Shown here: in pieces, positions 6,115 to 41,977 of the stretch | How the letters are laid out: every line of letters begins with the position of its first letter | Position numbering within the stretch: position 1 is the first letter of the stretch | Assembly (NCBI GenBank): GCA_011191875.1 | Contig: DUFC01000031.1 | Location: 1-42,878, forward strand | From: Dehalococcoidia bacterium | GTDB lineage: Bacteria; Chloroflexota; Dehalococcoidia; Dehalococcoidales; W498 | Length of the DNA: 42,878 bases | Direction: 5' to 3' | Made by a program: the position numbers and the translations under genes | Notes under the pieces: generated by a model | Told to the model about the DNA's origin: nothing | Database searches by the model: none | Seen by the model: the letters and a program-made list of their open reading frames with translations, nothing else

Positions 6115-6735
6115 ATGTTTACCAGTGAGAATATTATAATACGAAAGGGACTTCCGGAAGATGCACAGGACTTCTCTAATCTCAGTTTGCTATCCGACCC
6201 GGTCTTTTGCCAAGCCATTTTTGGCTCTGGGACAAGAAATATGCTTCAAAACCTGTTTCGCCAGAGAAGGAATTTATTCAGTTTTGAACATTCATATTTC
6301 ATTGAGGTAAATGGTAAGAAAGCAGGCATGATTCTCGGATATGACGGGAAAAGTGAAAGCGGGGAAACTTGGAGAACCGGGTTGTTGATGATTAAGTATA
6401 TGAAGCTGGGCTTCTTCACCAAAATCCTATCTTTGTTGAAAGCTCTGAGCGCAGTAAGAAGGGTTAAAGATAATGAGTACTACATTAGTAATCTTGCCGT
6501 GTATCCCGAATTTAGGGGTAATAAACTAGGGACAAATCTTCTTGTGAGAGCCGAAGAAGGGGCTAAAAGCTGTGGTGCCGAAAAAATGGCATTAGATGTT
6601 GCTGTGAATAATCAAGATGCTATTAGATTATATAACCGGCTCGGGTATTCAATAGTGGGAAAGCCACTAAGAGCTAGAATTAGCCGAAAAGTCTTTACAT
6701 TTTTTAGAATGTATAGGAAAATTGATGTTGTCTAA
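6115..6735 (+). CDS. GNAT family N-acetyltransferase
   Basis: From ATG 6115 this is a 206-aa protein. The C-terminal half has the acetyl-CoA binding fold: YYISNLAVYPEFRGNKLGTN (motif A, RGNKLGT in the Q/RxxGxG/A position), then the KMALDVAVNNQDAIRLYNRLGY segment typical of GNAT enzymes. The substrate is not predictable; RimI-like protein acetylation or small-molecule acetylation are both possible. An upstream in-frame TTG at 6022 would run back into the Dph6-like gene and gives unconvincing residues, so I reject it. No clear Shine-Dalgarno is present. GTTGGAC lies 14 bp upstream and GTCTAAC spans the stop codon, an integron-cassette-like placement. Confidence 0.8.
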   Translation: MFTSENIIIRKGLPEDAQDFSNLSLLSDPVFCQAIFGSGTRNMLQNLFRQRRNLFSFEHSYFIEVNGKKAGMILGYDGKSESGETWRTGLLMIKYMKLGFFTKILSLLKALSAVRRVKDNEYYISNLAVYPEFRGNKLGTNLLVRAEEGAKSCGAEKMALDVAVNNQDAIRLYNRLGYSIVGKPLRARISRKVFTFFRMYRKIDVV

Positions 6736-6771
6736 CGGCAAACACGCCAGAGAATAAAGTATCAGGGTATG

Positions 6772-6850
6772 TTGAAGGGACGAAACCCCTTCAAAAAACA
6801 TAATTCTCCCTCTCCTTTGAAGGAGAGAGATACAGGTGGTGAGGTTGAAA
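6772..6850 (+). repeat. modular palindromic repeat, copy 1
   Basis: A hairpin with arms TTGAAGGG and CCCTTCAA (6772-6794) is followed by an AT-rich link. A palindrome then follows with arm CTCCCTCTCCTT (6806-6817) against AAGGAGAGAGA (6820-6830), and a tail GGTGGTGAGGTTGAAA. The same order of parts is seen in the copies near 12.6 and 41.8 kb. It lies in the 173-bp gap between the GNAT gene and purH. Confidence 0.7.
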
Positions 6851-6908
6851 GCGATGGGTATTCCACCTAGAAAGGTGCAAACTGAGTTTAATAATTGGAG
6901 GAGTGCTT

Positions 6909-12132: not shown

Positions 12133-12249
12133 ATGGTTAGCCCCTTTCAGATAGAAATCATCACTGCCGTCTTCGCCGCCATAATATTCGGAGTAGTTCT
12201 GTGGTTGCAGTGGAAAAAACCTGTCGAGTTAGTCAAATCACAGGTCTAG
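12133..12249 (+). CDS. possible 38-aa single-pass membrane peptide
   Basis: An ORF from ATG 12133 to TAG 12249 encodes a hydrophobic stretch (IITAVFAAIIFGVVLWLQW) flanked by KK, which looks like one transmembrane helix with a basic cytoplasmic end. The only ribosome-site hint is a weak AATAGG directly upstream. It overlaps the convergent end of tilS by 4 bp. No family recognised. Confidence 0.35.
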   Translation: MVSPFQIEIITAVFAAIIFGVVLWLQWKKPVELVKSQV

Positions 12250-13763
12250 CCCTGCTCAAACTTCAAACGCAGAATCTGCTTGGTATTATCGGTAACCTTT
12301 ACCCGCTCATCTATGTGCCAGCCGACTACCCACAGGATATGCTGAGGTGAGCAGACAATGGGGATTCGCTGACGCCAGGCATGAGGAATTTTAGCGTCTA
12401 TCATAAACTCCCCTAGCTTCTTAGGCTGGCTTAGACCCAGTGGTTGAAACCGGTCACCGGTCTGGCGACTTCGCACTGTTAGTCTATCTCCAGTTTTATC
12501 AAGGTCAAAGTAGGCGGTAAAGAGCTCATCTATCAACCTTACCCCCTCGGCCTCCCTCTCCTTGGAAGGAGAGGGAGAAGAATAGTTATTAAAGGGGCTC
12601 CGCCCCTTGAACCTACCCTTGATGAACGAAGCGGTGGTAAAGTCCTCTTGGCTCAGAATGTTTGCCTCTATACGCCAGCCAGGTAGTAGTGTTTCCCCAG
12701 GTATCTTTAGTTGAAATTCACCACCTAGACTAGGAAAGGGAGATAAAGCGGCTGGGTCGGCACCTATCAGGTATTTATCGTATTCTATAGAGAAGATTAA
12801 ACCCCCGGGCAGGTTAAGCCTTTTCCCGGCTGGCTTGGTTAAGGCACCCATTATTTCCTCAATATGGCGTGTCTCAATATCCTTGAGGTTGCCCAGTAAC
12901 TTTTCTATAGAGACTCGAAGCAAGTGCCGCTTCAGGGCAGAAGGTAAGCCGAGAAATCTTACCTTGTTTAAAATAATTGTATTTTCTTGCTCTTGGGCAA
13001 CTTCACCCCATAACTGAGCGATTTCTTTATCAAGGAAGGCAAGGTCATCACTGGCAATGTGAGCAGTTCGGAGCAGGGCTTCACACACCCCTGGGTTGTA
13101 GCTCTGTAGGAGGGGCAGTAGTTGATGTCGGATTCTATTTCTTAGTGGCGACAGTGACAAATTAGAGGTATCAACCCGGGGTGTAAGCCGGTGGTGATGG
13201 CAATAGCCTGCCGTCTCCCGTCGTCTTACTGGCAACAGAGGTCTTATTATAGTAAGGCTATTTCTACTTTGCTCCGGTTGCAGTCCGCGAAGCCCCCTGG
13301 TTCCTGTCCCCCGGATTAGGTGCATCAGTATGGTTTCTATATGGTCGTCAATGGTGTGGCCTACTGCTACCCGGTCAGCGCCAATAGACTTGGCTGCCTG
13401 AGCCAGAAAGGTATATCGCACCTCACGAGCTGCCTCTTCCAGTGAAATGTGTTGCCGGACTTGATAAGCCTTTACATCACGTTGTTCTACAGTAGCTGGA
13501 ATACTTAATTGGTAGGCTAGCTCAGAAACATACCGGGCATCAGCTTCAGCCTCAGCCCCTCGCAGGAGATGGTTAAGGTGAGCTATATGTAGCCTTATAT
13601 CCAGCTCCTCCTGGAGCTTAACCATGATATTGAGCAAGCAGACCGAATCTTGTCCACCAGATACCGCCACCAGTAGCTTGCCCTGGCTTGATACCAGGTG
13701 ATGTTGCCGAATGAAGTGCAGGACCCGCTGCTCCAGTGTTGACTGCTTATTTTTCTTTACCAT
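12246..13763 (-). CDS. tilS: tRNA(Ile)-lysidine synthase with in-frame repeat insertion
   Basis: TilS converts C34 of tRNA-Ile(CAU) to lysidine with ATP and lysine, which makes AUA decoding possible. The N-terminal PP-loop ATPase shows VAVSGGQDSVCLL (residues 33-45) and VGHTIDDHIETILM. The C-terminal tRNA-binding domain shows DLDKTGDRLTVRSRQTGDRF and VGWHIDERVKVT. At 505 aa it is somewhat longer than usual. Residues ~382-410 (FKGRSPFNNYSSPSPSKERE and following) are encoded by a palindromic repeat at 12552-12608 that recurs elsewhere in the window. The insertion sits in the linker before AYFDLDKTG and keeps the frame. It is the last gene of a five-gene operon. Confidence 0.92.
   Translation of the reverse strand: MVKKNKQSTLEQRVLHFIRQHHLVSSQGKLLVAVSGGQDSVCLLNIMVKLQEELDIRLHIAHLNHLLRGAEAEADARYVSELAYQLSIPATVEQRDVKAYQVRQHISLEEAAREVRYTFLAQAAKSIGADRVAVGHTIDDHIETILMHLIRGTGTRGLRGLQPEQSRNSLTIIRPLLPVRRRETAGYCHHHRLTPRVDTSNLSLSPLRNRIRHQLLPLLQSYNPGVCEALLRTAHIASDDLAFLDKEIAQLWGEVAQEQENTIILNKVRFLGLPSALKRHLLRVSIEKLLGNLKDIETRHIEEIMGALTKPAGKRLNLPGGLIFSIEYDKYLIGADPAALSPFPSLGGEFQLKIPGETLLPGWRIEANILSQEDFTTASFIKGRFKGRSPFNNYSSPSPSKEREAEGVRLIDELFTAYFDLDKTGDRLTVRSRQTGDRFQPLGLSQPKKLGEFMIDAKIPHAWRQRIPIVCSPQHILWVVGWHIDERVKVTDNTKQILRLKFEQG
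12552..12608 (-). repeat. modular palindromic repeat, copy 2, inside tilS
   Basis: A 26-bp perfect palindrome with 12-bp arms CTCCCTCTCCTT / AAGGAGAGGGAG spans 12552-12577. A hairpin with arms AAGGGGC / GCCCCTT (12592-12608) follows. Read on the minus strand, the order (GC hairpin, AT-rich link, palindrome, GGGGGTAAGGTTG-like tail) matches copies at 6772 and 41833. It is translated in frame within tilS. Confidence 0.8.
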
Positions 13764-32694: not shown

Positions 32695-33612
32695 TCAGGA
32701 AAGAAACTTTTCGGTATAGATAGCAGCGGTAGCGCCATCACCGGCAGCAGTTATTGCTTGTCTCGCAGAGTTGCTGCGTACATCACCAGCAGCAAAAATA
32801 CCAGGTATCTCAGTCTCCATCTTGTCATTGGTAATAATATGACCAGCAGTGTCCAAAGGCAAAATGCCCTTAAGATAGTCGGTGTTAGGTTTGAGCCCGA
32901 TAGATATGAAGACTCCAGCTACCTCCAGAGTAGATTTTTCTCCCGTTTTCACCTCACGGAGCTTGATTCTTTTAACCAAATCTTCACCCTCAATTTCGTC
33001 AACTATAGCATTCCACAAGAATTGAATTTTAGGCTCAGAGAGAGCCTTTTCTTGCAGAATACGGCCGGCGCGGAGTTGGTCACGACGGTGTATCACGGTG
33101 ACCTTAGAGGCAAACTTGGCAAGATGAAGGGCTTCAGTAATAGCAGCATCGCCACCACCCACTACAGCTACTGACAACTCTCTGAAGAAGGTTGCATCAC
33201 AGGTAGCGCAGTAGGAGACCCCCCTCCCTATAAATTTCTCTTCTCCAGGTATGCTCAACTTGCGTCGTTCTGAGCCGCCGGCTATAATCGCTGCTTTCGC
33301 CATGAAGTTGCCTTCGGTCGTCTTCACCTCTTTTTGCTTCTCTCGGAGTTCAATGCCAGTAGCCTCAGCGATAATAGTATTTAGTCCATATTTTATTGCC
33401 TGCTGGTACATTAACTGTCCCAGTTCAAAGCCGCTAATGCCATCAGGAAAACCGGGATAATTCTCTACCAGTTCGGCACTTACTATCTGACCACCGACCA
33501 GCCCTCCTTCTACCAGCAGGCTATTTAGCCCGGCTCTTGAGGTGTAAAGTCCAGCGGTAAGTCCAGCCGGACCGCCACCAATAATAATTACCTCATAATT
33601 ATTGTCTACCAA
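32695..33612 (-). CDS. trxB: thioredoxin reductase
   Basis: This 305-aa NADPH-FAD disulfide reductase has the FAD loop IIGGGPAGLTAGLYTSRAG, the redox pair in ATCDATFF (CATC, then D), the NADPH fold VVGGGDAAITEALHLAKFA and the C-terminal FAD motif GIFAAGDVRS. It reduces thioredoxin, likely the TrxA encoded 167 nt upstream on the same strand. The start is TTG 33612, and the GGGGGTGGG Shine-Dalgarno is part of a repeat-like sequence that also precedes DUF2851. Confidence 0.95.
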   Translation of the reverse strand: MVDNNYEVIIIGGGPAGLTAGLYTSRAGLNSLLVEGGLVGGQIVSAELVENYPGFPDGISGFELGQLMYQQAIKYGLNTIIAEATGIELREKQKEVKTTEGNFMAKAAIIAGGSERRKLSIPGEEKFIGRGVSYCATCDATFFRELSVAVVGGGDAAITEALHLAKFASKVTVIHRRDQLRAGRILQEKALSEPKIQFLWNAIVDEIEGEDLVKRIKLREVKTGEKSTLEVAGVFISIGLKPNTDYLKGILPLDTAGHIITNDKMETEIPGIFAAGDVRSNSARQAITAAGDGATAAIYTEKFLS

Positions 33613-33655
33613 CCCACCCCCTTTATCCCCCTTCCTTTTGTAAGGGAGGGGAAAT
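33607..33655 (-). repeat. modular palindromic repeat, copy 4, at the trxB start
   Basis: CCCCCTTCC...GGGAGGGG forms an imperfect palindrome at 33627-33651. On the minus strand it is followed by AAAGGGGGTGGGTTGG, which resembles the tail of the other copies. The tail supplies the Shine-Dalgarno and TTG start of trxB. Confidence 0.55.
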
Positions 33656-33705
33656 TGGTTTTATAAAAGAGGATTTTTACCCCATTAAAAACTGTATTTT
33701 AAATA

Positions 33706-33760
33706 CCCAGAAAAATCTCTGATTTTTCTGGGAACCCAATTTATAGGGACCCCTATAATT
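33706..33760 (-). repeat. hairpin repeat family 2, copy 2, between trxA and trxB
   Basis: 11-bp perfect arms CCCAGAAAAAT (33706-33716) and ATTTTTCTGGG (33722-33732) are followed on the plus strand by AACCCAATTTAT and CCCCTATAA, similar to the DNA after the hairpin at 20198. It could also act as a terminator or attenuator between trxA and trxB. Confidence 0.6.
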
Positions 33761-39439: not shown

Positions 39440-39468
39440 TTGACTCCCTACTCGAAAATGATTAAACT
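39440..39468 (+). promoter_or_regulatory. promoter of the FmdB gene cluster
   Basis: TTGACT (39440-39445), a 17-bp spacer and TAAACT (39463-39468), about 18 bp before the first FmdB ATG. The GATTAAACTAACAA segment around the -10 box is repeated before the second and third genes. Confidence 0.6.
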
Positions 39469-39486
39469 AACAATGGAGGAAAGAAG

Positions 39487-39702
39487 ATGCCGATTTATGA
39501 GTATGTTTGTCCTAAATGCAATTTAAAGTTTGAACTGCGATGCTCATTTAGTGAGTCTAGCGAAGAAGCTCCCTGTCCCAATTGCCAAAGTAGTGCCAAA
39601 CGGGTATTCTCCGCCTTTGGCATCTCATCCGTAAGTGAATACGGACAACACCTGGCTAGAGGTGGCAAGCCCCGTTCTGGTGTTTTTGATAGTAAAAAAT
39701 GA
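39487..39702 (+). CDS. FmdB family zinc ribbon protein, copy 1
   Basis: This 71-aa protein begins MPIYEYVCPKCNLKFELRC, the FmdB/CxxC_CxxC_SSSS signature, with zinc ligands Cys8, Cys11, Cys30 and Cys33, then KRVFSAFGIS. Members are small putative regulators first linked to formamidase or formylmethanofuran-dehydrogenase genes; the function is unsettled. GGAGGAAAG precedes ATG. It is the first of three tandem paralogues. Confidence 0.9.
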   Translation: MPIYEYVCPKCNLKFELRCSFSESSEEAPCPNCQSSAKRVFSAFGISSVSEYGQHLARGGKPRSGVFDSKK

Positions 39703-39727
39703 TTTAACTAACAAGAGAGAAGGAAAA

Positions 39728-39949
39728 ATGCCAACTTATGAGTATGTTTGTCCCAAATGCAATCTAAAGTTTGAGCTGAAACGCCCGATTAGTGAGGCTG
39801 GCCAGGATGCTGCCTGCCCCCATTGCCACAGTAGTGCTAAACGGGTATTCTCCACCTTATCCATCGTTGTCAAAGATGGATACGGTCTGTCCTTTTCCAG
39901 AACCGACAAGCCCGGTTCTGATGGTGTTATAGGTAGTAAAAAGGATTAA
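39728..39949 (+). CDS. FmdB family zinc ribbon protein, copy 2
   Basis: This 73-aa paralogue starts MPTYEYVCPKCNLKFELK and keeps all four zinc cysteines. The start is ATG 39728, aligned to the other copies, with GAAGG upstream; a reading frame opening at 39635 extends back into copy 1 and is not real. The C-terminal part (FSTLSIVVKDGYGLSFS) differs from copy 1, so the duplication is not recent. Confidence 0.9.
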   Translation: MPTYEYVCPKCNLKFELKRPISEAGQDAACPHCHSSAKRVFSTLSIVVKDGYGLSFSRTDKPGSDGVIGSKKD

Positions 39950-39970
39950 ACTAACAAGAGAAGATGGGAA

Positions 39971-40204
39971 ATGCCAATATATGAGTATGTCTGTGCCAAA
40001 TGCAATTTAAGGTTTGAGTTGCGACGTCCGCTTAGTGAGGCTAGCCAGGATTCTACCTGTCCCCAGTGCCATAGCAGGGCTAAGCGGTTATTCTCCACCT
40101 TCGCCTCCTTCTCTACAGATAAAAGCGGATTAACCACTCCTATAGCTGGCAGCAATCCATGTGCTAGTTGCAGTGCTACTAGCTGTGATACCTGCAATCC
40201 TTAA
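39971..40204 (+). CDS. FmdB family zinc ribbon protein, copy 3
   Basis: This 77-aa paralogue starts MPIYEYVCAKCNLRFELR and keeps the four zinc cysteines. Unlike copies 1 and 2 it ends in a second cysteine-rich segment (CASCSATSCDTCNP), which resembles the C-terminal tails of many FmdB proteins and may bind a second metal. It lies 21 nt after copy 2. Confidence 0.9.
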   Translation: MPIYEYVCAKCNLRFELRRPLSEASQDSTCPQCHSRAKRLFSTFASFSTDKSGLTTPIAGSNPCASCSATSCDTCNP

Positions 40205-41770: not shown

Positions 41771-41910
41771 CCCCTTTATCCCCCTCTCCATGATATGGAT
41801 ATATTCCTATCATGAGTGGGAAGAGATTTTAAAGAGGGGCGAAGCCCCTCTCTTACCTACACTCCCCCTTCCCTTGTAAGGGAAGGGGGCTAGGGGAATA
41901 GGTTGCTGAG
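41771..41910. repeat. double copy of the modular palindromic repeat with nested palindrome (copy 5)
   Basis: The centre is a hairpin AGAGGGGC / GCCCCTCT (41833-41851). To the right a perfect 26-bp palindrome has arms CCCCCTTCCCTT / AAGGGAAGGGGG (41864-41889), followed by a GGGGAATAGGTTG tail. To the left the matching palindrome is split by the AT-rich near-palindrome at 41789-41814. The two halves are in opposite orientation and share the central hairpin. The remaining intergenic DNA (41646-41770, 41911-41980) shows no gene. Confidence 0.7.
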
Positions 41911-41977
41911 CAGTCCAAAGAAATTTACTGATAGTTACTACACTCTTGCTGTTAGCATACCCCGAAAACTAACCCTG

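Follow-up and report, generated by a model that had tools for sequence, protein, structure and literature searches.

How a hairpin repeat that normally lies between genes came to be placed inside the gene of an essential tRNA-modifying enzyme is the question raised by a 42,878-nt stretch of contig DUFC01000031.1 (hereafter the window) from an uncultured member of Dehalococcoidales, designated genome G000. TilS is essential in model bacteria, and repeats that are inserted in genes without breaking them are best known from Rickettsia. The gene, tilS, is coded on the minus strand at 12246..13763, and its product of 505 aa is tRNA(Ile)-lysidine synthase, with both domains by which the host protein is recognized, the PP-loop ATP_bind_3 (Pfam, 2.4e-49) and TilS_C (4.8e-16); NCBIfam TilS equivalog domains matched the same ORF. 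It is the single full-length tilS match in G000, with two further short matches left aside. The repeat element occupies 12522..12631 on the minus strand, with ends uncertain by about 5-10 bases, so that some 110 bp make up codons ~378-414 with the reading frame preserved. It was recognized with 111.2 bits (E 5.3e-25) by a covariance model built from 18 copies. Two palindromes were found in it: palindrome B at 12552..12577 (26 bp), of which the inner 22 bp at 12554-12575 are perfect (CCCTCTCCTT-GG-AAGGAGAGGG), and palindrome A at 12591..12608 (AAAGGGGCTCCGCCCCTT), which is near-perfect. The 22-bp pattern of palindrome B was observed twice in the window, while its chance expectation there is 0.00. 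The initial annotation had described a 57-bp unit with one palindrome at 12552-12608 (residues ~382-410); both stems do fall in this span, but the whole element is about twice as long and has two stems.

An alignment of copies from several genomes revealed a constant order of parts: stem A (GAAGGGGC-loop-GCCCCTTC), an AT-rich spacer of about 15 bases, stem B (CCCCCTCTCCTT-loop-AAGGAGAGGGGG), and then ATTAAGGGGGTGAGGTTGATAAACAATC. Inverted ends GTTTATCAA...TTGATAAAC are present in well-preserved copies (L074 and L002), although the terminal inverted repeats are partial and often eroded, and the left end varies across 30 copies. Sequence comparison establishes the conservation of the stems. In 98 copies from genome G077, 95.5% of the cells in the two stems are paired, and 302 cells are changed on both sides, versus 88 in shuffled and 12-47 in slid controls. 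Changes on both sides occur in 12 of the 13 pairs of stem B, which is 97.8% paired, and in 8 of the 10 pairs of stem A. The tilS copy itself, as DNA, folds better than its own shuffles (z -2.8). Read in the orientation of tilS, the element often has one frame free of stops (GSLKGRSPFKNYSSPSPLKERGIKGVRLINN); the frames most often open are antisense ones (33 of 53 copies). No family was matched when the window was searched against Rfam.

The same repeat had been noticed in intergenic positions of the window, and this was borne out, clearly for the copy at 6753..6859 (plus strand, 65.3 bits), which lies between an ORF ending at 6735 and an ORF starting at 6903 and has a counterpart at the matching place of genome G001, and less strongly for two others. 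The copy at 41811..41917 (plus strand, 54.2 bits, E 2.8e-10) is more diverged, and that at 33598..33721 (minus strand, 41.3 bits, E 5.7e-7) is weak and diverged, with no recognizable copy at the matching place of G001. A separate feature of the window is a 213-nt repeat in three tandem copies 72-74% alike, spaced by about 242 nt, at 39455-40151. Comparison of G000 and G001 presence/absence pairs, including a site filled in G001 and empty in G000, revealed no clear target-site duplication, the junctions being diffuse and too diverged.

The family in G000 comprises about 20-37 copies depending on the threshold, with 48 matches when E<=0.1 is allowed and 19 when stricter filters and E<=1e-5 are required. 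For E<=0.01, G001 yields 88 matches and G077 at least 147. Nearly all of the compared genomes are draft MAGs. Peptide-level copies occur in 20 of 20 Dehalococcoidales genomes, which were picked from the first search, and when a stricter threshold was applied to 156 genomes of the order, just 23 had such copies. Across the phylum, a sample of genomes yielded no more than three matching ones besides G000. One of these is G138, a member of another family of the same phylum, outside the order, with 13 copies and a best model score of 98.8 bits; they may have arrived by transfer or reflect misbinning. The element is missing from six genomes of family f9 that are finished or nearly so. In 378 kb of G077, where ORFs cover 87% of the sequence, 112 of 123 copies (~91%) are intergenic, 8 are at gene edges, and 3 are internal by a simple ORF rule; among the latter, only the tilS copy is in a clear gene. 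Because the copies are overwhelmingly intergenic despite this ORF cover, the element is depleted from genes, and the coding copies are rare survivors.

Most order-level relatives have TilS without the insert, and the distance between the anchors of the linker is 57-69 nt in insert-free orthologues versus 159 nt in the window gene. In none of the compared relatives was the insert peptide found without the repeat DNA, and the insertion is lineage-specific, as the initial annotation had proposed. Sites filled in the same frame were identified in G000, G001, G059, G052, G021, and G031; that of G029 is part-deleted. Sister elements of type B (KGKPEGALAPSE...) lie in tilS of G077, G068, and G032, and B+A composites in the linker of G059, G052, and G031. 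In G028, a 512-aa TilS ORF has the element in another frame (KGSFEGAKPLQNLNLPLSFKGEGDKGGEV), and in G090 an unrelated palindromic repeat (GTCATTCCGGCGAAGGCCGGAATCC, peptide VIPAKAGIQ) lies in frame in the identical linker; its pattern has 39 matches in that genome, one of them inside tilS. Apparent remnants of inserts are present in G022, G062, and G057. The repeated entry of different repeat families into this linker goes beyond the initial annotation. Type-B inserts are found also in two contigs labelled as Deltaproteobacteria, a full B segment in L051 and a pared-down one in L065. The tilS genes of these two contigs and of L052, titled in the same way, group within Dehalococcoidales, and L052 seems to be the same contig as G032:C20; all three are probably mislabelled bins.

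Repeats do break MAG assemblies, and tilS of G006 is split at contig ends adjoining the element, so a repeat falsely joined into tilS by assembly or binning was considered. Unbroken in-frame inserts with species-specific changes in independent assemblies, as well as intact flanking synteny with G001, speak against such an artefact, and it was rejected as having practically no probability.

A second explanation is a single gain of the insert in an ancestor of these Dehalococcoidales, followed by many losses, the linker then being no recurrent site. The G000, G001, and G029 inserts share the left flank and belong to one supported clade, and therefore the insert is inherited there from one insertion; the remnants in G022, G062, and G057 indicate that in-frame loss does happen. 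For the order as a whole, this history is contradicted by the different frame in G028 and the unrelated repeat in G090, by left flanks that are unlike one another (SQEDFTTASF in G000, DREQMTEKDESFNTGWF in G021), and by G049, which has a different insert while its 100%-supported sister G021 has a full element. In the best TilS tree, inferred from an alignment stripped of the insert columns, at least 5 changes are required by the +1-frame insert and 10 by the contrast of any insert versus none, and since many deep nodes are weak, these are not exact counts of gains and losses. A single clade of TilS with the +1-frame insert was rejected by the AU test (p=0.000156), which does not separate gain from loss. 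Taken together, the sequences demonstrate more than one origin of the tilS inserts, and a single ancestral insertion is unlikely and largely refuted.

Between distant species, the inserts often resemble each other more closely than do the codons that flank them, which also counts against a single origin and suggests later arrival or exchange. The G052 and G031 inserts are 90.5% identical versus 78.9% in the flanks, and those of G068 and G032 are 98.1% identical over 18 codons versus 77.3% in the flanks. About 2 kb downstream of tilS in G031 (L061, 6440-6830), an intergenic element is followed by a duplicated tilS 3' end, which begins at the right end of the element and contains a 99-aa ORF matching residues 408-503. 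These identities and this duplicate suggest recombination between element copies, which in G031 would have taken the end of the gene with it.

The place of the insert in the protein seems to be a tolerant one. It had been proposed that the frame is kept and that the insertion falls in a linker before a conserved motif, and both points agree with the position ahead of TilS_C (residues 428-497) and with an AlphaFold prediction from a 39-sequence alignment, in which pLDDT is 28-36 over the insert, about 92 before it, and about 94 after it. Apart from residues 1-5, values below 50 are confined to residues 379-412. When TilS is compared by sequence with 3a2k, the enzyme of Geobacillus, the insert lies between regions matched to residues 4-349 and 383-439. 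Recurrence at a single linker of an essential enzyme, and one reading frame in all internal cases found but one, could point to an insert that is functional and kept for changing TilS, either in tRNA binding or in expression via mRNA hairpins. The peptides nevertheless have no constant frame, length, or sequence; in close relatives they are often trimmed or missing, and they are predicted as disordered; moreover, the G000 and G001 inserts are 71% identical as protein, below the 85.5% of their flanks. That the insert was kept for such a function is very unlikely.

Other coding copies, for which the initial annotation had suggested a search, were indeed found. In-frame copies in ispE were identified in G006, G030, and G020, with a part-deleted one in G059, while ispE of G028, G000, G001, and G039 is insert-free. 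Copies in the SAM hydroxide adenosyltransferase gene (SAM_HAT) are present in G077 and family member G194 but not in G000 and G001. Pfam domains flank each of the ispE and SAM_HAT inserts on both sides, and their reading frame is that of the tilS insert. The counts of coding copies rest on the best peptide-search matches listed and are lower bounds. For antisense frames, no clear internal case was found in 20 genomes among the matches listed, which left out three ORFs of 162-230 aa (G032:C6, G020:C40, and G006:C69). Elements also directly abut the 5' ends of conserved genes, namely argB, truA, tgt, an aminotransferase gene, pyrE, and hisI (L090, L096, L100, L101, L102, and L115). These N-terminal fusions were not counted as coding copies, since several can be accounted for by a start codon located at the element's right end or past it; GTG/TTG starts could be provided by this right end, GGGGGTGAGGTTGATA. 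In L104 (truA) and L102 (pyrE), a second segment with the peptide RVPxKIEDFSGCLQ is nested inside the element, and its DNA in L104 is the palindrome CCCAGGAAAATCGAAGATTTTTCTGGG.

No report of the element in Dehalococcoidales was found in the open-access literature, and known repeats were compared with it by description. In the reviews PMC2229807 and PMC10969869, Rickettsia palindromic elements (RPEs; Ogata et al. 2000, 2002) are stem-loops of about 105-146 bp with inverted-repeat ends, located between genes and also in frame in conserved housekeeping genes, where the insert is compatible with function, as tested by others for gmk. The element is likewise rich in hairpins, of similar size, and in frame in conserved genes (tilS, ispE, and SAM_HAT) of which insert-free orthologues exist, and it seems to be tolerated there. 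The resemblance drawn by the initial annotation holds in these respects, but not in distribution: nearly half of the RPEs of R. conorii are described as within ORFs (PMC10969869), while the element in G077 is overwhelmingly intergenic. It also differs in its host (Dehalococcoidales, Chloroflexota), in having two separate stems instead of one long stem-loop, and in that one linker was hit repeatedly by different repeat families. The element behaves like RPEs, which is a likeness of action and no claim of membership. The Wolbachia protein-coding palindromic repeats (Ogata et al. 2005) and the coding repeats of archaea (Suyama et al. 2005), both cited in PMC2229807, are also in-frame repeats within protein genes, but of unrelated organisms, and the likeness is one of description.

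Like the bacterial MITEs Correia/NEMIS, RUP, and ERIC (PMC2229807), the element is short, non-autonomous, structured, high in copy number, and mostly intergenic, with some copies fused in frame to ORFs; unlike in these, its ends carry only partial terminal repeats, many of them eroded. Like REP sequences, it has GC-rich palindromes that are dispersed over many intergenic sites. REP units are 20-40 bp long and include GTAG/CGTC-tagged palindromes (PMC3733652), whereas the element is a fixed two-stem unit of about 110 bp with conserved ends, and its consensus has no tetranucleotide tag at the foot of either stem.

It is very probable that the element is a REP/MITE-like repeat of Dehalococcoidales that was recurrently inserted in tilS and is tolerated there as a disordered loop. 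Its presumed mobility would depend on a trans-acting enzyme. A non-autonomous repeat of about 110 bp would enter tilS within the codons that link the middle domain to the C-terminal substrate domain. Because one element frame is often stop-free and the tilS frame survives the net insertion, the enzyme would gain about 30 hydrophilic, disordered residues in the linker. The segment is presumably translated as part of TilS, and activity is presumably retained. The linker would be permissive: within the order, differently framed copies and other repeat families would have entered it on several occasions, and the inserts may later be trimmed by in-frame deletion or swapped with other genomic copies.

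A further proposal is quite unlikely, namely that palindromic repeats of unrelated kinds genuinely and repeatedly land in the tilS linker and the matching ispE loop across the order, and are kept because the hairpin-encoded, disordered stretch changes lysidine synthesis or tilS expression; if true, it would mean that repeats are repeatedly recruited as protein loops. This repeat family in Chloroflexota offers, at a single linker, sites that are empty, filled, or reduced to remnants, together with insertions in different frames and by different repeat families. They form a natural series for asking how proteins acquire disordered segments and why certain sites are permissive.
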